Assembly (NCBI RefSeq): GCF_013170845.1
Contig: NZ_CP033367.1
Coordinates: 3,039,001-3,103,000 of the forward strand
From: Mesorhizobium loti R88b
Lineage (GTDB): Bacteria; Pseudomonadota; Alphaproteobacteria; Rhizobiales; Rhizobiaceae
Length of the DNA stretch: 64,000 nucleotides
Direction: 5' to 3'
Part shown: positions 3,139 to 46,086 of the stretch, one piece after another
Position numbering within the stretch: the stretch's first letter is position 1
How the letters are laid out: each line of letters begins with the position of its first letter
The notes under the pieces: model-generated
The model's input: only the letters and a program-made list of their open reading frames with translations
What the model was told of the DNA's origin: nothing
Databases searched by the model: none
Position numbers and translations under genes: made by a program

Positions 3139-4671
3139 TTAGAACGGTGTCGCGGGCAGTTCCTGGGTGCCTTCGAGCTTCACGGCCTGGAGTTCGTTCG
3201 CGTTGTAGCCAAGAGCCCGCAGGATGGTGGGCGCCACTTGCGTCGTCTGCACCAGGGTCGGTACCGATCTCGGCTTGAGCGAAGGATTGCTGATGAGAAG
3301 CGCCACGTTGCGATCGTTCGCATTGGCGCCGCCATGCTCGGCAATCTTCGAACCGGATGTGTAGACCACGCCCGGGTTGACCGTGGCTATGAAGTCCGGG
3401 GTACGGCTGTCGGTGGCCGGATCCTGATAGGCGAGGGCAAGGGCATTGGGCGGCTGGATCTGGGCGATGCCTTCAGCCTTGCTCGACTTCTCGAGATAAT
3501 CCTGCGCCGCCGCAAGGTTCTTGACCCTGTCTTGCGGTTTGAGCCAGATCAGCGCGGCGTCGTCGGCAATGTGGAAGGCGTAGCCCGGTGTCTTGGTGTA
3601 TGGATCATCGTCCAGTGGCTGGAACGTCGCCGGGTCGATGGGCGACTGGCCATGCTTCGAGGCAAGTATGATCAGGGTCGAACTGGTGAGGTGGTTGTCC
3701 TTGAGTGCCACCATCAGTTCGCCGAGGGCGCCGTCCACATAGGCGAGTTGCCCGGCAAGACCATTGCCAGGCGCGCCGCTGGCATCCAGATAGCCGCCCA
3801 CCAGACCGGCCTCGTCGCCGGGACCGGACTTGGGGAGTTTCTGGCCCACGCTTACCGCCTGGAAATTCATGCCGAAAAGCGCGGGAACCGCGGCGGGATG
3901 CGAACCGGTGCTGTCGAGCCCCTTGATTTCGTTGATCACCGCCTTGACCCGCGCTTCGTCAAAGTCACGCTCGGCCTTGAAGCTGCCGGTCGTCTTGACC
4001 TTCGTGCTGGGGATCAAGCTGTCCTGTTCCAGGGCGTAGAGGTCGTCGACGCCTTTGCCCGAAGGTCCGTTCAGCCATTCGTAGGCCGGATGCTTGTCGG
4101 ACCAGGCCGTGCGGCCGCCATGAGCCTTCACGATCTCGAAGACGTTGTTGACCCGCACGAAATCATGCGGATAGACCACCGAGCACTTGCCGTTGATCAG
4201 CGTCATCGGCAGCTTGGCCGGGTCGATCTGGCTGTGGAAATCGCCCGGCTTGCCGCCACCATCAAGGCGCGTCGAATCGACGTCGATGTTCTCGGCGAAG
4301 GACACCTCGGCGCCGGCCTCGCCCTTGCAATCCGAAGCCGGCGCGAAATAGGTGCGGTCGTAGCTGTCGTCATAGAACACGCCCGTCGATTTGGGCGTGC
4401 CGCCGGTCACCTGTGCGACAAGGCCAGGAAACGAGTCGGACGGGGCGCTGGTCAGCGCATTCGGATAGAAAATCCCGGTACCGGCGAGCGTGGCGATCGC
4501 GCTTTTCGGATTCGCGGCGACATAGTTTGCCAGGTCGAGTGCATGGAGCCCGTCGATACTGATGAGCAGCACGTGCTTGTAGGGTGCGGCGTTGGCGCCG
4601 GAAACAGACAGCGCGCCCGCCAACGCCGTCGTCAGCGTGCCGGCGGCCAGTGCCAGAGATAGTCTTTTCAT
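3139..4671 (-). CDS. secreted alkaline phosphatase / nucleotide pyrophosphatase family protein
   Basis: This 510-residue protein has a clear Sec signal peptide (MKRLSLALAAGTLTTALAGALS, cleavage near SGANA-AP) and the alkaline phosphatase superfamily metal motifs: HVLLISIDGLHALD after the signal, a T/S nucleophile region (NALTSAPSDSFPGL), ASKHGQSPID and AEHGGANANDRN near the C-terminus. The family (type I phosphodiesterase) hydrolyses phosphomono- or diesters in the periplasm using two metals. The ATG at 4671 is chosen because AGGGA precedes it and the signal peptide begins there. It is a single gene, followed by a stem-loop at 3088-3113. Confidence 0.85.
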   Translation of the reverse strand: MKRLSLALAAGTLTTALAGALSVSGANAAPYKHVLLISIDGLHALDLANYVAANPKSAIATLAGTGIFYPNALTSAPSDSFPGLVAQVTGGTPKSTGVFYDDSYDRTYFAPASDCKGEAGAEVSFAENIDVDSTRLDGGGKPGDFHSQIDPAKLPMTLINGKCSVVYPHDFVRVNNVFEIVKAHGGRTAWSDKHPAYEWLNGPSGKGVDDLYALEQDSLIPSTKVKTTGSFKAERDFDEARVKAVINEIKGLDSTGSHPAAVPALFGMNFQAVSVGQKLPKSGPGDEAGLVGGYLDASGAPGNGLAGQLAYVDGALGELMVALKDNHLTSSTLIILASKHGQSPIDPATFQPLDDDPYTKTPGYAFHIADDAALIWLKPQDRVKNLAAAQDYLEKSSKAEGIAQIQPPNALALAYQDPATDSRTPDFIATVNPGVVYTSGSKIAEHGGANANDRNVALLISNPSLKPRSVPTLVQTTQVAPTILRALGYNANELQAVKLEGTQELPATPF

Positions 4672-35890: not shown

Positions 35891-36586
35891 TCAATACCCC
35901 AGCAATTCCTTCAGCGGTATAACCCGCCAGACATGCTTGATCGCGTAGCGGTTGAAGGTGATCGTTTTCGGCGGATTGTACTGCTCGACCACCAGTTCAC
36001 CCGCCGTGCGCTTGACCAGTTTCTTGACGAAGGCCTTGCCGTTCTTTTCGTTTTCTTCCGGAAACGTCTCGATCACCACATGGTCGCCCGGCACCGCGTC
36101 GCGGCCGCCGCAATAGATCAGGTCGCCAGGTTCGTAGCGCGGCACCATGGAATCCGACAGCACATGCAGCGCGAACACCTTTGGCAGGTTGCGCACGCCC
36201 GGCGGGCGCTGGACGTAGCCGGCCGGCTCGCCGTTGAAGGTGAAGTCGCCGTCGTCACCGCCGACTGCGGCGCCCAGCACCTCGATATCCATTGATCCGG
36301 CGGGCAGGGGGCCGGCATCGGTGACGATCTCGGCATCGGCCACCGGGCCGGCATCGTCGAGGAAGACAACCTGCCCCTGGCCGAGCGCGACGGGGTCGAC
36401 GCGCAGGAAAGCGGCGGTCTTGAACAGGTTCTCGGTCTTGGGCAGATTGCGGCCGGTTTCCCAATTGCCGACGGCGGCGACATCGGTGTCGTTGTGCTCG
36501 GCAATATGGCGCATGACCAGGCCGCGCTGCTTGCGCGCCTGGCGTATCGCCGCCCCGACCTTGATCGACAGTTCCGTTTTGGCCAT
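35891..36586 (-). CDS. phage-type XRE repressor with S24 (LexA-like) peptidase domain
   Basis: The 231-residue protein has an N-terminal helix-turn-helix (LSIKVGAAIRQARKQRGLVMRHIAEHN, residues 5-31) and a C-terminal S24 domain. The catalytic Ser is in VLSDSMVPRYEPGDLIY and the catalytic Lys in GKAFVKKLVKR. Such repressors self-cleave after RecA activation and control lytic genes. It is divergent from the gene at 36670, the layout of a phage immunity switch. Confidence 0.9.
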   Translation of the reverse strand: MAKTELSIKVGAAIRQARKQRGLVMRHIAEHNDTDVAAVGNWETGRNLPKTENLFKTAAFLRVDPVALGQGQVVFLDDAGPVADAEIVTDAGPLPAGSMDIEVLGAAVGGDDGDFTFNGEPAGYVQRPPGVRNLPKVFALHVLSDSMVPRYEPGDLIYCGGRDAVPGDHVVIETFPEENEKNGKAFVKKLVKRTAGELVVEQYNPPKTITFNRYAIKHVWRVIPLKELLGY

Positions 36587-36634
36587 GGCGCCCATCTGAG
36601 CGATGAAAGCAGCTCTCGTCTATGAAAGAATGGC

Positions 36635-36663
36635 TTGCATCTATTTTTGAGTTATGCTTATAT
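36635..36663 (+). promoter_or_regulatory. possible promoter of the gene at 36670
   Basis: TTGCAT (36635-36640), 17 bases, TTATAT (36658-36663). Transcription would begin close to the ATG at 36670, so the message could be leaderless. No ribosome-binding site is seen upstream of that ATG. Confidence 0.4.
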
Positions 36664-36669
36664 CTGGCC

Positions 36670-37062
36670 ATGCAGAACCTGTCCAGCTTTCAAGGCGCCG
36701 TGGCGCCGGCCTCCCGCGAGGCAAACCCAACGACTGAAGTCGTTACCCATTCCCTTCCGCCCCGGCCGTCCTCCTCCCCGGCCGGGGCGAAGCCCGAGCG
36801 CTCTGATGCCTCGGGTCCGGCCCGCCCGTCACCGGCGGCCGGAACGGCCGGAGCCGCCGCTCCCCGCGGCTCCGGCCCCCCATTCGACCGGCCAGCTGCC
36901 GGTCCCTATGCGCGCTCCTGCATCCGCACGCAGGACGGCACCGTCATCCTGTTCGAGCCGATGACGGGCAGGGCGGTTTCCGCCCCTGACAGAAAGACGG
37001 CGGAGGCCAGGCTTCTGCGCCTGCGCGCCGGGGTTCCGCTCCGGCTGATCCGCCCCGACTGA
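36670..37062 (+). CDS. proline/alanine-rich hypothetical protein
   Basis: The 130-residue protein has a disordered Pro/Ala/Ser-rich first half and a short folded C-terminus (YARSCIRTQDGTVILFEPMTGRAVSAP, then RLLRLRAGVPLRLIRPD). It is divergent from the S24 repressor and is probably its target. No family is recognised. A start further upstream at 36622 is possible. Confidence 0.55.
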   Translation: MQNLSSFQGAVAPASREANPTTEVVTHSLPPRPSSSPAGAKPERSDASGPARPSPAAGTAGAAAPRGSGPPFDRPAAGPYARSCIRTQDGTVILFEPMTGRAVSAPDRKTAEARLLRLRAGVPLRLIRPD

Positions 37063-37188
37063 TTCCGGCGAGGAGCCGGCTCTCTCACCGAACACCCTGA
37101 CCCTGGCCCGCACCGGGCCTGACCCTGACGCATGGCCGACGGCGCGCCTGGGCGTGGCCGAAGGCGGACCCATGGATGGAGCCTGGAC

Positions 37189-37866
37189 ATGGCAAGCTAC
37201 AGCGACGCCGAATTGCAAGAGATCGCCCGCTGGCTGAAAGAGGGGCTTTCGGCCTCGAGGATCGCGGCGGCGTTCAGCGCGCTGCGCGGCAGCGCTGTGT
37301 CACGCAACGCCATTATCGGCATCGTCCACCGCAACGCCATGCTGGGCGCCATCGGCTTTGCCAATGGCAAGGGAGTGCCGGCCGGCGCCAAACGCGTTGC
37401 GGGGGCTGCGGGCAAGCGGGCGAGCCGAACGCCTGCGAAGGGCAGAGCAGACGACAAGGCGGTCGCCGGTAACTTGGGAGAGAAGCATGCCGCCAAGAGC
37501 GCCGGGGTGCGGAAGAACAAGGCTCGGGCCAGGCGTGACGCGCCGCCCGCCTGGCTACCGCCACGCCTGTTTGTGCGCGAGGTGGGGGTGCTGATCGCCG
37601 ATGGCGAAGCCTACCGTTTCAAGGTGCCGGCGCCACAGCGCGGACCGATCGGCCGCCAGCCGCATGGCGTGGCGATGCGCTTCATCGACTGCCTGTTTTC
37701 CCGCTGCCGCGCGCCATTGGACCTGACGCTGGAAGAGGATCCGGGGAACGACGCGCCGGGCAGCCGGCCCGGCGCCGACATGCTGTGCTGCGGCATGCGC
37801 ACAAAAGCGCTGAAAAGCTACTGCGGCTACCACCAGGCGCGATTTCAGAGGCGGGTTTGCACGTGA
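37189..37866 (+). CDS. GcrA-like cell-cycle regulator homologue
   Basis: The 225-residue protein has the GcrA N-terminal DNA-binding pattern (YSDAELQEIARWLKEGLSASRIAAAFSAL..., SRNAIIGIVHRNAMLG, residues 3-52), a basic Ala/Lys linker and the GcrA-type cysteine/histidine C-terminus (CLFSRCRAPLDLTLEEDP, CCGMRTKALKSYCGYHQARFQ). GcrA works with CcrM methylation in the alphaproteobacterial cell cycle. This copy sits in a phage-like block and lacks the usual length and sequence at the N-terminus, so it is more likely a phage or accessory paralogue. Confidence 0.8.
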   Translation: MASYSDAELQEIARWLKEGLSASRIAAAFSALRGSAVSRNAIIGIVHRNAMLGAIGFANGKGVPAGAKRVAGAAGKRASRTPAKGRADDKAVAGNLGEKHAAKSAGVRKNKARARRDAPPAWLPPRLFVREVGVLIADGEAYRFKVPAPQRGPIGRQPHGVAMRFIDCLFSRCRAPLDLTLEEDPGNDAPGSRPGADMLCCGMRTKALKSYCGYHQARFQRRVCT

Positions 37867-38225
37867 ATTTTCCTTCTCCCCGTTCACGGGTGCGGCATGC
37901 ACACATTTCCAAGCAGCTGGTCTTTGGCGATAGCGTGCATGGCAGCTTGGCGTATGCATTGTCTTATGCCGCGCTGGTCGACCCCCACTCCGTCTCGGCT
38001 TCGCCGAGCCACCTCTCCCCCGATCGACGGGGTAGAGGAAAGGCACCAGGCTTTTTGCCGTCAACGCTCGTCCAGCAAGGCTCTCTTCCTTTCCCTCCGG
38101 AGGGGGGAAAGGTGGCGCTGCGAAGCAGCGGCGGATTGGGGGAACCACATGGCAATCAAGCCTCGCAACGATCAATCACGCCAGCAACAGAAGATGTTTG
38201 CATAGCGGGCAGCGTCCCCTTCACC
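37867..38225. repeat. intergenic region with degenerate mosaic palindromes
   Basis: No gene is supported in these 359 bases. They hold a truncated CCTTCTCCCCGT/ACGGG hairpin at the left end, a CTCGGC-TTC-GCCGAG hairpin (37994-38008), an imperfect CTCTCCCCC/ACGGGGTAGAG hairpin near 38012-38039 and a CCTTTCCCTCC/GGAGGGGGGAAAGG pair near 38090-38113. These are fragments of the palindromic elements seen elsewhere in the window. Confidence 0.6.
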
Positions 38226-38543
38226 CTATTTCGGCGCCTGCCGGCCCTGCTTGGGCATGCGGCTCTGCACGCTGCGTGGCTCCAGCATCATGGCCGGGCC
38301 GCTGGCTTCGACCAATATGCCGGCAACGCGGGCAAAGCCGGTGAACACTTTCATGGCGTCGGATTGCGAGATCTGCGCCGCGATCGCCGCGCTGCAGGCA
38401 TTGAGCGCGCTGCGGTAGACGTGGCCGCGCCGTTCGATCGGCCAGCGCTGCAGGAAATCGGCGGCGTCGCTGACGCTGTCGATTTCCTCGACATGCCCGT
38501 CGAGCGACACTTTGAGCGGCACTCCGGTTTTCATCGTACCCAT
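38226..38543 (-). CDS. DUF982 family protein
   Basis: The 105-residue protein matches the small rhizobial DUF982 pattern: a beta-rich start (VPLKVSLDGHVEEIDSVSDAADFLQRWP), then RGHVYRSALNACSAAIAAQISQSDAMKVFTGFARVAGILV. The function of the family is unknown. AGGG precedes the ATG at 38543. A second DUF982 gene lies 90 bases upstream on the same strand. Confidence 0.8.
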   Translation of the reverse strand: MGTMKTGVPLKVSLDGHVEEIDSVSDAADFLQRWPIERRGHVYRSALNACSAAIAAQISQSDAMKVFTGFARVAGILVEASGPAMMLEPRSVQSRMPKQGRQAPK

Positions 38544-38633
38544 GGCGTTCACCCTGGCCTTTCGTGCGGTGTAAAAGACCGCGTGTATAAACGCACAAGC
38601 CAGGCTGGCGGTTGCATCACGGTTGGCGCCGGC

Positions 38634-38915
38634 TCATGGATTGGCGGCTGCGTCCAGCCAGTCATGAGCACGGCTTCTCGGCTTGGCCACCAGAATGCCT
38701 TGCTGCCTTGCCGCCTTTGTGAAGGCTTCGAAAGCAATGCGCGGGCAGCAGCTGCCGTCGATAGCAAGTCCGATCAGCCGCGCGGCATCAGAATAGGCCG
38801 GCTTTGCCTTGTCGGGCCATTGCTGGCGCAGCGCTTTCTCCGCTTCGGCCACCGAGCCGACCAGCATCGTCTTGTTGTCGCTAAAACGCAGCGTAAGCGG
38901 CATGAAAGCCGTCAT
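38634..38915 (-). CDS. DUF982 family protein (second copy)
   Basis: The 93-residue protein aligns in layout with its neighbour: LTLRFSDNKTMLVGSVAEAEKALRQQWPDKAKPAYSDAARLIGLAIDGSCCPRIAFEAFTKAARQQGILV. GGAGG lies eight bases before the ATG at 38915. The two copies are diverged paralogues in tandem. Role unknown. Confidence 0.8.
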   Translation of the reverse strand: MTAFMPLTLRFSDNKTMLVGSVAEAEKALRQQWPDKAKPAYSDAARLIGLAIDGSCCPRIAFEAFTKAARQQGILVAKPRSRAHDWLDAAANP

Positions 38916-39007
38916 CGGCAAACCTCCCCTTGGATTGGTCGCGGCACAACGTCCGGAGTTGCGGCTGGTTCCATTAGCGTTCATGTAAGAATGGCGCGGG
39001 GCACGGC

Positions 39008-39619
39008 ATGAGCGAGCGGCCCTTCATGCAGCTCTACGTCTCCGATTTCGTCGGCGACACGTTGCAGCTCTCGACCGAACAGATCGGCGCCTACATGCTG
39101 CTTTTGATGGCGATGTGGAACGCCGGCGGCAGCCTGCCCGACGATGACGCCAAGCTCGCGCGGGTGGCGCGGCTGCCACTCAAGAGATGGCGCACCATCA
39201 GCACCGATCTCATGACCTTCTTCGAGCGCGAGGCGGGCGAGATCGGCCACAAGAGGCTGACCAGGGAGCTGCACAAGGCGCTGGTCAAAAGCGAGGCGAG
39301 GGCCGCCGCCGGCGCGCGTGGCGGTGCCGCCACCGCCCTGAAAACAAAGACGCATGTCCCAGCAAATGCCGATGGTTTGCCTCGGCATTCTCCAGACTCC
39401 AGAAACCAGAAGGAAAAGGCTGGCGCCTTTTCCCGCGCAAACACGACAGCTCCCGTTTTGTCGGGAAAAAAATCCGGCTGGCAGCGGCCGAAAACCCACA
39501 CCGACGCCGCCAATGCCATCATCGAGGAGATCGAGACCCATGACCGCAGCCGAAATGCAGCAGGCGACGAAGGCGCTGGCCGCGATGTTCTCATGCTTCC
39601 CGCAATCCGCCTTGACTGA
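39008..39619 (+). CDS. DUF1376 (YdaU-like) phage replication-type protein
   Basis: The 203-residue protein starts MSERPFMQLYVSDFVGDTLQLSTEQIGAYMLLLMAMW, the hallmark of DUF1376/YdaU proteins encoded in lambdoid-type prophage replication regions, followed by a disordered Lys/Ala-rich middle. It probably takes part in phage DNA replication initiation. The next gene begins inside its last 80 bases in another frame. Confidence 0.85.
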   Translation: MSERPFMQLYVSDFVGDTLQLSTEQIGAYMLLLMAMWNAGGSLPDDDAKLARVARLPLKRWRTISTDLMTFFEREAGEIGHKRLTRELHKALVKSEARAAAGARGGAATALKTKTHVPANADGLPRHSPDSRNQKEKAGAFSRANTTAPVLSGKKSGWQRPKTHTDAANAIIEEIETHDRSRNAAGDEGAGRDVLMLPAIRLD

Positions 39620-39845
39620 TGTCGAGATGCAGCTGCGCGGCTATCTCAGCGCCGTGCGCGACGCCGAGCTTGCCGATTTGCAGGCCGCCATCCAGCGTTT
39701 CGTGCGCGGCGAGGTGAAGAGCGGCAACGCCCAGTTCTGCCCGTCAAGCGCGCAGCTCTGCATTGAGGTGCGCGAGCGGCGCATGATGCGCGAGCTGATG
39801 GCGAGAAGGGCGGCCTCGGTTCCCGCGAAGCTGGCGGCGGGATGA
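39540..39845 (+). CDS. hypothetical protein overlapping the DUF1376 gene
   Basis: The 101-residue helical protein (MTAAEMQQATKALAAMFSCFP... LRGYLSAVRDAELADLQAAIQRFVRGEVKSGN... FCPSSAQLCIEVRERRMMRELM) starts 80 bases before the DUF1376 stop. Phage replication-loader-associated proteins have a similar helical layout with a CPSSAQL-like motif, so it is likely a partner of the DUF1376 protein. This is inference from position. Confidence 0.7.
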   Translation: MTAAEMQQATKALAAMFSCFPQSALTDVEMQLRGYLSAVRDAELADLQAAIQRFVRGEVKSGNAQFCPSSAQLCIEVRERRMMRELMARRAASVPAKLAAG

Positions 39846-39894
39846 CCCCTCTAACCGAAACACCGCACCCCAATCCCCAACAAGGAGCCACCCC

Positions 39895-40488
39895 ATGCCC
39901 AAAAAAGCCAAAGCCGCCAAGCCACAAGCCCCCAAACTGCCGAAGGGCGAGGCCGAGCAGGTGCGCATCCGCCGCGAGGTCGGCCATGATTTTGCGCTCA
40001 GGGACGACGCGTTCGGCCGCAAGCGGCTGGCCGCCGGCACGGCTGAAGCGCGGCGTGTCTACGAAGTGTCGAATGACGGCTACACCTCCACCGGCGGCAT
40101 CGTGCGGGTGCGCACGGTCGACCCGCTCATCGGCATCACCTCGCTGTCGCGCCAGCAGCGCGAGGCCGGCCAGCGCTACCGCGAGGATTTTCAGTGCAGC
40201 CAGCAGGCCAGCGTCAAACCGATGCGCTGGGCCGAGCGCATCGATGGCGGCCGCCACGGCGGCGGCATCGCCGACAATGTGCTCGACGCCGGCCGCGCGC
40301 ATGCCGCGGCGACCAGGGCGCTGGGGCATTGGGATGTCGCGGCAGTGGTGCGACACGTCTGCTGCGCGGGGGAGTCGGTTAAAGGTGTGGCCGAGCAGAC
40401 GGGGGAAGGCCGGGACGTGGTGACGAAGCTCTTGAAGGTCGGGCTGGACCTGCTGGCGGTGCACTATGGGATGATGATGGGGCGGTGA
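39895..40488 (+). CDS. DUF6456-like protein
   Basis: The 197-residue protein has a basic Lys/Ala/Pro N-terminus and a C-terminal domain (LSRQQREAGQRYREDFQ... ALGHWDVAAVVRHVCCAGESVKGVAEQTGEGRDVVTKLLKVGLDLLAVHYG) like the DUF6456 segment found with HTH proteins in alphaproteobacteria. The end reads as a helix-turn-helix, so DNA binding is plausible. It closes the phage-like block. Confidence 0.65.
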   Translation: MPKKAKAAKPQAPKLPKGEAEQVRIRREVGHDFALRDDAFGRKRLAAGTAEARRVYEVSNDGYTSTGGIVRVRTVDPLIGITSLSRQQREAGQRYREDFQCSQQASVKPMRWAERIDGGRHGGGIADNVLDAGRAHAAATRALGHWDVAAVVRHVCCAGESVKGVAEQTGEGRDVVTKLLKVGLDLLAVHYGMMMGR

Positions 40489-44741: not shown

Positions 44742-44770
44742 TTGACAAACGTCGATGCCGCAGCCCTATT
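44742..44770 (+). promoter_or_regulatory. sigma-70-like promoter of the peptide genes
   Basis: TTGACA (44742-44747), a 17-base spacer and CCTATT (44765-44770). The predicted start lies about 25 bases before the first peptide ATG. A second TTGACA (45075-45080) stands before peptide 3 but has only a weak -10 partner (TCCATT). Confidence 0.55.
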
Positions 44771-44801: not shown

Positions 44802-44891
44802 ATGAAAAAAACCTATACGAAGCCGGTGCTTGCAAAGCGCGAGAGATTGTCGACCATCGTGGCGGAATGCCCCATCTCGAACTGCATGTGA
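44802..44891 (+). CDS. putative RiPP precursor peptide 1
   Basis: The 29-residue peptide starts at the ATG at 44802, with GGGGA at 44790-44794, seven bases upstream. Residues 1-21 match peptides 2 and 3 (MKK-x-Y-x-KP-x-L, then an R at 13, LS at 16-17, I19 and A21). The eight-residue C-terminus is ECPISNCM, with cysteines at 23 and 28. The leader's Y-x2-P-x-L is the spacing seen in lasso-peptide leaders, where it is bound by the recognition element. The core lacks the Gly1 and Asp/Glu7-9 needed for a lasso ring, so the class is open. No modification enzyme is nearby. Confidence 0.65.
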   Translation: MKKTYTKPVLAKRERLSTIVAECPISNCM

Positions 44892-44892
44892 C

Positions 44893-44982
44893 ATGAAGAA
44901 AGCGTATGAAAAGCCGACGCTTGTTCGGCGTGACAAGCTCTCAGCCATCACCGCCGGTTGCACACCTTCGTCCTGCCCATAG
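44893..44982 (+). CDS. putative RiPP precursor peptide 2
   Basis: The 29-residue paralogue starts one base after the stop of peptide 1, so the two are translated together. Leader positions M1, K2, K3, Y5, K7, P8, L10, R13, L16, S17, I19 and A21 are identical to peptide 1. The core is GCTPSSCP, with cysteines again at 23 and 28. Thr20 sits two residues before Gly22, like the conserved -2 Thr of lasso leaders, but the core has no acidic residue for a macrolactam ring. Confidence 0.65.
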   Translation: MKKAYEKPTLVRRDKLSAITAGCTPSSCP

Positions 44983-45132
44983 CGCAGGGCGGACGTTACA
45001 GCGGCATGGTCGACGGCCATGCCGCCCGTGCGATCAACATTTCGCGATTTTCGCGGGGGTCGTTCAGCTCTGGCTTGACATGGGTTGGGCGGCTCGCTCC
45101 ATTGGCGGCCTTTCCGTGGCATGGGGATTCTG

Positions 45133-45231
45133 ATGAAAAAGACGTACCAAAAGCCGACGCTCGACAAGCGCCAGCAGCTTTCCCGCATCACCGCGGCCGC
45201 GGTCAGCTCGTCGGGTGGCCCGAAACCCTGA
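45133..45231 (+). CDS. putative RiPP precursor peptide 3 (no cysteines)
   Basis: The 32-residue paralogue begins at the ATG at 45133 (GGGGA six bases upstream). It keeps the same 21-residue leader pattern (Y5, K7-P8, L10, R13, L16-S17, I19, A21), but its C-terminus is AAVSSSGGPKP with no cysteine. It is separated from peptide 2 by 150 bases that include a GGCATGG/CCATGCC inverted repeat. The leader is kept while the core changes completely. Confidence 0.6.
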   Translation: MKKTYQKPTLDKRQQLSRITAAAVSSSGGPKP

Positions 45232-45375: not shown

Positions 45376-46086
45376 ATGAAGGCAGGATTGAGCGCAAGGC
45401 GGTTTCGGGTCGAGGTGGTCGCAGCGCCGCGTTCGCCCGGCGTCTGGGGATCGGCGACCGTCAACATCTTCGACGGCGACAGCTGGATTGGGGCGTATGA
45501 GCGCAACTATCCCAGCTTTGGGGAACAAACCTTCGAGCCGTTCGAGATCGATGGCGCCTGGTATGCACTCTATTCCAGCGACTACACCGCAACGCGGGTG
45601 ATGAGCCTGCCGGCTTGCAAGGATTTGGGCGGCGAGGAGTCAGCGTCCGATGGCTTTTGCCCGGTCGAGCTTTTTGTGCCGCGCTACAGGAAGGCCACAT
45701 ACACGAAACGAGCGACGGGCGAGCTGAAAGAGAAATGGGTGTTCGAAGCTCGGGCCGAGACGTTCAAACTGCAGGAAGACAATGCGTATGATTATGGCTG
45801 GTCGATCGGCCCCTGGTTGTCGCTGACCACCGGCTTCGTCGCCGGCTGCATCTGGGGCGACGATTCAACCTGGAAGGTCCAACTGTTCGATCTGTCGGAA
45901 GCGGCCAGCGGCAAGATTGTCCGGACGGAGCGGTTCGGTCACCTGGCGCTTGCCGAGGGCATCTCGCTCGCCGGTTCCCTCGACTTCGATCGCCATATGC
46001 CGGACTGGGAGTTGCGGGCGACCATCATCCGGCGCGAGCGCCGCGACGTCGCCACCGGCAAGCTCATCGATCCCTACGACGAATAG
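45376..46086 (+). CDS. hypothetical protein, 236 aa
   Basis: A soluble protein rich in Trp, Tyr and Asp (VNIFDGDSWIGAYERNYPSFGEQTFEPFEIDGAWYALYSSDYTA... SIGPWLSLTTGFVAGCIWGDDSTWKVQLFDLSEA). No signal peptide is seen and I recognise no family. It starts 144 bases after peptide 3 on the same strand, with only a weak GAG-like site before its ATG. A connection to the peptides is possible but unsupported beyond position. Confidence 0.65.
   Translation: MKAGLSARRFRVEVVAAPRSPGVWGSATVNIFDGDSWIGAYERNYPSFGEQTFEPFEIDGAWYALYSSDYTATRVMSLPACKDLGGEESASDGFCPVELFVPRYRKATYTKRATGELKEKWVFEARAETFKLQEDNAYDYGWSIGPWLSLTTGFVAGCIWGDDSTWKVQLFDLSEAASGKIVRTERFGHLALAEGISLAGSLDFDRHMPDWELRATIIRRERRDVATGKLIDPYDE

Follow-up and report, generated by a model that had tools for sequence, protein, structure and literature searches.

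A distant cyclase-less enzyme set as the likely maturation machinery of three probable linear phosphopeptide precursors of Mesorhizobium loti R88b

Three neighbouring small genes of Mesorhizobium loti R88b are likely to encode precursors of linear phosphopeptides of lasso ancestry, which a distant enzyme set without a cyclase would mature in trans. The window, which is the whole 64,000-nucleotide stretch analysed here, covers C1:3039001-3103000 of a genome that consists of one contig of 7.2 Mb.

Results

Three precursor genes and their surroundings

The three open reading frames are real genes and members of a large family. All lie on the plus strand: gene 1 (MKKTYTKPVLAKRERLSTIVAECPISNCM, 44802-44891) and gene 2 (MKKAYEKPTLVRRDKLSAITAGCTPSSCP, 44893-44982) encode 29 residues each, and gene 3 (MKKTYQKPTLDKRQQLSRITAAAVSSSGGPKP, 45133-45231) encodes 32. 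A single base separates the gene 1 stop from the gene 2 start, and 150 bases lie between the end of gene 2 and the start of gene 3. The leader of gene 1 (MKKTYTKPVLAKRERLSTIVA, 44802..44864) is followed by the core ECPISNCM (44865..44888), in which Ser sits within a Cys pair, and by the stop at 44889-44891. Gene 2 comprises the leader MKKAYEKPTLVRRDKLSAITA (44893..44955), the core GCTPSSCP (44956..44979) and the stop at 44980-44982, while gene 3 is composed of the leader MKKTYQKPTLDKRQQLSRITA (45133..45195), the core AAVSSSGGPKP (45196..45228) and the stop at 45229-45231. A preliminary description of this DNA had listed these frames, their lengths and their cores, which we recovered to the base. 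Its count of 11-12 common leader positions becomes 12 identical positions among all three peptides, and the Cys residues that it placed at 23 and 28 of peptides 1 and 2 are present.

The -35-like element TTGACA lies on the plus strand 60 bases 5' of gene 1 (44742..44747) and again 58 bases 5' of gene 3 (45075..45080). The region 5' of gene 3 resembles the one preceding a solo copy elsewhere on the chromosome (C1:3141624). Across the family, TTGACA occurs in 106 of 202 upstream regions, where base shuffles give 4.3 on average, and 103 of the 106 occurrences fall between -70 and -51; the consensus of the 202 regions has no clear -10 box. With the element so placed in about half of these regions, many family genes may have their own promotion.

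In a Pfam scan of the 22 ORFs flanking the genes in the window, 12 had a match (acyltransferase, ABC-uptake, regulator, phage-type and other genes) and 10, some of which are perhaps not genes, had none; no RiPP enzyme was among the 22. Profile searches of the own genome placed PF13471 only at 242 and 275 kb of C1 and PqqD only at 242, 275 and 463 kb (three matches), leaving no lasso-type maturation gene of either kind within C1:3039001-3103000, as had been claimed for the vicinity of the genes. Maturation by local enzymes was rejected on the Pfam scan of the flanking ORFs. Two further features of the window are recorded here: a 236-residue ORF 3' of gene 3 (45376-46086) with zero Pfam or NCBIfam matches, and a series of S24/HTH repressor, GcrA, DUF1376 and DUF6456 ORFs (35894-40485) that suggests a phage-derived stretch upstream.

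A peptide family with a constant leader

In the own genome, a degenerate DNA pattern that describes the start of the leader has three exact matches (gene 2, gene 3 and the solo copy at C1:3141624), with no match for the reversed control. The same pattern occurs in 70 of 119 Mesorhizobium genomes, and the control gave zero matches in all 119; judged by these sequence counts, recurrence of the leader pattern in the genome and the genus is not chance. A family profile (A3, built from 82 members) detected peptides in 83 of the 119 genomes. The preliminary description had proposed to look for the leader in related genomes, and far from lacking a match, most of them carry it. The profile matches the own genome 14 times at E<=0.01. 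Under the stricter E<=1e-4, 13 matches remain, distributed over C1:0.93, 1.00, 2.46, 3.08, 3.11, 3.14, 3.15 and 3.21 Mb.

With the family as query, a database search returned 453 proteins (E<=0.001), and NCBI names many of the best 120 as 'putative RiPP precursor' or 'lasso RiPP family leader peptide-containing protein'; these names are applied to the same family and give no class, enzymes or modification. Against the NCBIfam model NF033521 (lasso_leader_L3), peptide 2 scores 12.1 bits, with the cut-off at 19, and peptides 1 and 3 are unlisted. The window peptides also fall under the cut-off of NF033528.

Among 163 distinct peptides, a count that excludes 5 entries with Tyr off position 5 and peptides of fewer than 22 residues, the 21-residue leader is almost fixed and positions 22-31 are variable. 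The leader consensus is MKKTYEKPxLxKRxKLSxVTA, in which no peptide departs from K3 or L16, and few from K2, K7, L10 or A21; Y5 and P8 were imposed by the search pattern, which also restricted L10 to hydrophobics. The leader evolves more slowly than the core, with dN/dS of 0.185 versus 0.45 (65 ortholog-like, non-independent pairs; core value from equal-length cores only), so it does not decay as fast as the cores, the contrary outcome that the preliminary description had considered. Its view that a conserved leader with a variable core marks RiPP-type precursors is thus supported across the family.

Two unusual members were observed. In M. loti CJ3sym (L042:5840-6480), the gene 2 ortholog has W at the motif Tyr, two leader codons missing and the core DCTPSTCP, with genes 1 and 3 retained. 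A family-like peptide also occurs on a contig labelled as a Gaiellales MAG (L103:5995-6111), possibly a binning error.

An invariant serine in the cores

Core composition was analysed in 202 leader-pattern peptides with 187 distinct cores, selected by leader and not by core. Loci labelled or placed as Mesorhizobium supplied 173 of the 187, and others supplied 14. The W-type CJ3sym ortholog and the precursors of L184, L185 and G275 stand outside this set; their core Ser is present by eye. The median core length is 9 residues. Ser is present in all 187 distinct cores, while random redistribution left a mean of 44 and a minimum of 30 cores free of Ser (2000 shuffles). Exactly one Ser occurs in 132 cores, and the commonest location is core position 5 (68), followed by position 4 (27). 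Cys is absent from 146 cores and occurs exactly twice in 41, never once or three times, and in 41 of 41 two-Cys cores Ser lies between both Cys. We regard the invariant core Ser as the probable site of modification. The core compositions given in the preliminary description are correct, but it had overlooked this Ser.

A candidate enzyme set without a cyclase

A distance of about 2.84 Mb separates the window genes from C1:240.3-243.1 kb, where B1, B2 and HPrK-like genes on one strand meet a convergent NTP_transf_5 gene; this set is flanked by a Dak1 gene and an AMP-binding gene. A leader regular expression found no precursor within the 13-kb stretch around it, and the set contains no lasso cyclase. 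As a tblastn query, the cyclase of L010, the locus of a lasso-type cluster in the same genome, gave a full match in L010 and a best E of 0.69 elsewhere; this one query had no match in 20 loci (some overlapping; stretches of 7.9-15 kb) that carry the B1-B2-HPrK-NTase set.

The B1 profile matches lasso B1 structures, the best being TfuB1 (E 2.8e-14). B2 accompanies B1 and the kinase in 18 of 18 loci, its Cys74 and His111 are invariant in 16 sequences, and in L123 B2 and HPrK are fused in a single 471-residue frame. The own genome encodes two B2-type transglutaminase-like proteins. The kinase retains the P-loop and DD motif, with H135, S154, G157, K158, D175 and D176 invariant in 18 sequences; these are similar to the residues that matter in BsfK. 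It scores 19.5 bits against PF07475, under the gathering cut-off of 33.3, and stays below the curated cut-offs of HPr kinase families. A PDB sequence search with the kinase only gave nothing at E<=0.1. Its predicted model (pLDDT 92.7) has PEP carboxykinases as best structural matches, which we take to belong to the same P-loop superfamily as HPr kinase-like proteins.

No exporter recurs consistently across the loci; the L069 set is adjoined by a MacB/HlyD-type pair and that of L184 by an ABC gene. L184 additionally encodes a DUF6065 protein with a C-terminal PqqD domain (3242-4303, minus strand), adjoining the cyclase-less set and three Pro-rich precursors.

Peptides and enzymes co-occur

The HPrK-like gene was found in 80 of 119 Mesorhizobium genomes (best 18 candidates per genome), and the NTP_transf_5 gene is present in the same 80. 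All 80 kinase-positive genomes carry peptides, at least 3 each; among the 39 kinase-negative ones, three have one match each. The association has a Fisher p of 2.4e-27, a statistic that ignores shared ancestry. The preliminary description had suggested seeking co-occurring genes, and the HPrK-like and NTP_transf_5 genes elsewhere in the genome track the peptides. Concerning the three kinase-negative matches, the single peptide of G112 is intact, that of G114 has CTG at the start position, no kinase was found in either genome, and the G095 match is a relic in which both the YxxP part and the core Ser are missing. Damaged frames occur as well: the NTase frame is broken or split in G106 and G030, and a stop lies inside the profile-matched kinase stretch of G029.

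Across Hyphomicrobiales (377 genomes, 139 genera), the kinase was found in 15 genomes (best 5 candidates per genome), and peptides at E<=1e-4 in 12 (best 21 candidates per genome), all 12 among the 15. Outside Mesorhizobium, 6 peptide-positive genomes fall within the 9 kinase-positive ones of 368 (p 2.5e-11, with kinship ignored), and these 9 span six families. G194, G393 and G275, which are kinase-positive and missed by the peptide profile, have three, five and four low-scoring peptides near the operon, respectively; in the G275 precursors, A replaces the motif Pro. A phylum-wide search with the kinase profile gave 8 of 398 genomes, all in the same order, and as the best 5 candidates per genome were scored, kinase carriers were perhaps missed.

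Physical linkage is found in relatives. Devosia insulae (L069) encodes five tandem precursors followed by B1, B2, HPrK and NTase, all in the same direction. In Mesorhizobium, one peptide lies directly 5' of B1-B2-HPrK in L071, L088, L101 and L108, and in G046 a peptide precedes the kinase by about 0.9 kb. Outside this genus, precursors lie beside the set or within about 2.5 kb of it in 8 of 9 kinase-positive genomes (L178 to L182, L184, L185 and G275). The ninth, G161, has its profile matches elsewhere and merely a precursor-like ORF near the set. In G276, the precursor belongs to a frame of 132 codons. Its leader, KPYHKPTLTKGSVLSDVTA (L178:4050-4260, minus strand, and L151), continues into a longer frame with SDIRLKRDI, which we take to be reminiscent of the S74 intramolecular chaperone motif.

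Lasso likeness and alternative readings

The leaders share the register Y-17, P-14 and L-12, for which the search patterns demanded Y, P and a hydrophobic residue at -12. At -2, the 202 peptides have T (122), V (58), A (19), S (2) or I (1), the five residues that the pattern permits; window peptides 2 and 3 have T and peptide 1 has V. A complete lasso-type cluster of the own genome (L010:6693-12578, corresponding to C1:274.7-280.6 kb) encodes a precursor (MEQNVEKHEYETPSLTVHGSIETITQ/GGGGSTAIDASFPAHTPIGDLTFS), PqqD, B2, an Asn synthase, an HPrK-like protein and an ABC transporter. With the cut assumed at the lasso rule, the sequence preceding the core of this precursor is YETPSLTVHGSIETITQ. In the corresponding stretch, peptide 2 reads YEKPTLVRRDKLSAITA, equals it with 17 residues from Tyr to the cut and has Y-17, P-14, L-12 and T-2, confirming in register the YxxPxL lasso leader motif noticed earlier.

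That the peptides are true lasso precursors matured by this cluster would account for the leader motif and register, and the cluster would supply B1, B2, cyclase, HPrK-like protein and transporter alongside its own precursor. The cores fit this reading badly: 22 of 187 have at least 13 residues, 17 have D/E at core position 7-9, and 2 have both. None of the three window cores combines such a length with such a residue, bearing out the lack of lasso ring residues claimed before. The genome distribution fits badly as well. PF13471 occurs in 95 of 119 Mesorhizobium genomes, comprising all 80 kinase-positive ones and 15 of 39 others (best 34 candidates per genome), and 12 genomes have a PF13471 match and zero peptides. 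Conversely, G039, G067 (79% complete), G068, G116 and G118 hold 6 to 16 peptides each, with no lasso-type B2 found among the best 34 candidates per genome; as 5 of the 80 kinase-positive genomes have the second B2 type only, the lasso machinery is seemingly not needed. The lasso-cluster B1 shares 21% identity with the other B1. Lasso maturation was rejected on core length, ring residues and genome distribution, and we regard it as most improbable.

Whether the peptides are RiPP precursors at all may be asked from their neighbourhoods. In 79 loci, drawn from the best 80 of 120 relatives (each at most 12 kb long, some truncated where the contig stops), the enzyme set is present in 5, and among the mechanically called ORFs the most widespread gene family reaches at most 6 of 47 neighbourhood groups. 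The 74 loci without enzyme genes, together with a top neighbour family in at most 6 of the 47 groups, would suit small proteins with another job, such as regulators, antitoxins or signals, that resemble RiPP leaders by accident. The B1-B2-HPrK-NTase linkage in several families, the tight co-occurrence and the constant leader beside a varying core make this very improbable. Alternatively, B1 and B2 would mature the peptides in trans, but Ser would be modified otherwise, by direct nucleotidylation, glycosylation or an unseen enzyme, and the kinase would have its target elsewhere. NTP_transf_5 is as closely tied to the peptides as the kinase, which agrees with this proposal, as does LppN, described as without visible activity in the published expression system (PMC13381572). 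The proposal is nevertheless unlikely, given that the related kinases LppK and BsfK are reported to phosphorylate the core Ser of YxxPx-type precursors and that the kinase retains residues of the catalytic type.

Discussion

From the gene structure, family, register, core constraints, enzyme set, co-occurrence and linkage elsewhere, all computed here, we infer how linear phosphopeptides may arise. B1 would grip the leader at Y-17, P-14 and L-12 and hand the precursor to the kinase and B2. The HPr-kinase-type enzyme would phosphorylate the invariant core Ser, mostly at core position 4-5, B2 would act as a cysteine leader peptidase that cuts after T/V-2, A-1, and the NTP_transf_5 protein would then perhaps add a group, maybe a sugar, onto the phosphate. 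Recognition and cleavage by B1 and B2 are highly probable, and a phosphate on the core Ser is fairly probable. As no cyclase would take part, the product is in all likelihood linear, or has a disulfide as its sole closure if Ser lies between two Cys; such a disulfide in two-Cys cores is moderately probable. Transfer of a sugar or other group through the NTase is possible, if doubtful; we count sugar transfer because the K and N enzymes of pseudomycoidin are reported to phosphorylate and glycosylate a Ser (PMC8498205). The products may be exported and may have a biological role. In the own genome, a single enzyme set would serve about 13 precursors spread over the chromosome, and one distant set acting on scattered precursors could give these soil bacteria many different peptides.

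Several findings speak against this pathway: the kinase scores under the curated cut-offs and its best structural matches among PEP carboxykinases; the peptides of G112 and G114, where no kinase was found; the core Ser mostly at 4-5, versus 3 or the C terminus in studied cases; V as penultimate residue in 58 of 202 leaders, where T is usual; the lack of a consistent exporter; and the altered leader of the CJ3sym gene 2 ortholog. The G095 relic, the A for the motif Pro in G275, the longer frame of G276 and the damaged frames of G106, G030 and G029 count against it as well. Some phosphorylated lasso precursors are reported to carry Ile/Val at -2 (PMC10368454).

Among described classes, the LPP family of Bacillota comes closest. 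These Linear Polyphosphorylated Peptides were reported in 2026 from the lpp cluster of Paenibacillus alginolyticus, which is cyclase-less and encodes an RRE, an HprK-like kinase, an NTP transferase and the SpI-like peptidase LppS; LppK phosphorylates core Ser3, and the class is called restricted to Bacillota (PMC13381572). As far as that report describes it, the LPP system shares with ours the discrete RRE, the HprK-like kinase, the NTP transferase, the lack of a macrolactam cyclase, the YxxPx leader and the variable core. An LPP-like combination of RRE, kinase and NTP transferase without a cyclase is thus found here, although the kinase, recognised from its profile match, motif and model, stays under the curated cut-offs. 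By analogy, the present system probably works like the LPP pathway. It differs in its probable leader peptidase, a lasso-type B2 cysteine peptidase where LPP use LppS, in its leader (YxKPxLxKRxxLSxVTA in the Mesorhizobium family, YxxPxVLxHQxIxFETxxS in LPP), in cores with a median of 9 residues and precursors mostly scattered in Mesorhizobium, compared to LPP precursors of 35-200 residues within the cluster, and in its optional Cys pair and Hyphomicrobiales host (PMC13381572). By probable peptidase, leader, core size, layout and host, we consider it a counterpart of the LPP family, not a member. The preliminary description had proposed either a new class or enzymes in trans; the enzymes are probably in trans, with B1, B2, HPrK-like and NTP_transf_5 as candidates, but the class has relatives in LPP. 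The main text of the LPP report contains zero mentions of Pseudomonadota, Proteobacteria, Mesorhizobium, Rhizobi, 'in trans' or orphan (PMC13381572), and we recognised no published account of this alphaproteobacterial system within the open-access literature searched.

Phosphorylated lasso peptide systems, namely paeninodin, pseudomycoidin (PMC8498205) and bsf (PMC10368454), are described with B1, B2, HPrK-like kinase, nucleotidyltransferase, Tyr-17, Pro-14 and Leu-12, as here, but they have a cyclase and a lasso core, both of which are absent here. BsfK of Bradymonas sediminis is reported to phosphorylate an internal core Ser, Ser3 (PMC10368454). In layout, a second comparison can be drawn. 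Prochlorosin precursors are scattered away from ProcM. Prochlorosins, as described (PMC10783134), likewise combine one promiscuous enzyme with many precursors, but their lanthionine chemistry, Nif11-family leader and unrelated enzyme set them apart.

We lean slightly towards a dispersed RiPP system in which one chromosomal cyclase-less hub of B1, B2, kinase and nucleotidyltransferase serves scattered precursors, as many as about 20 in a genome, a large share of which have a promoter-like element to themselves. Such a hub would produce a collection of short phospho- or phosphoglycopeptides that are linear, some with the modified Ser in a disulfide loop, and would form its own class in Hyphomicrobiales, with an origin in lasso machinery separate from that of the Bacillota LPPs. 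Since enzymes and precursors are mostly unlinked in Mesorhizobium, genome mining that relies on gene clusters would be prone to overlook such a system. A family named merely 'putative RiPP precursor' thereby gains candidate enzymes and a probable modification, the orphan B1-B2-kinase-nucleotidyltransferase set gains a candidate substrate, and exact masses of the predicted products can be given. The calculated [M+H]+ is 894.315 for ECPISNCM with a disulfide and 974.282 when it also carries one phosphate, 749.259 and 829.226 for the corresponding forms of GCTPSSCP, and 957.500 and 1037.466 for AAVSSSGGPKP without and with one phosphate; a hexose on the phosphate would add 162.053. If true, the reading would extend cyclase-less lasso-type chemistry beyond Bacillota to Mesorhizobium and its order, which include partners of legumes.
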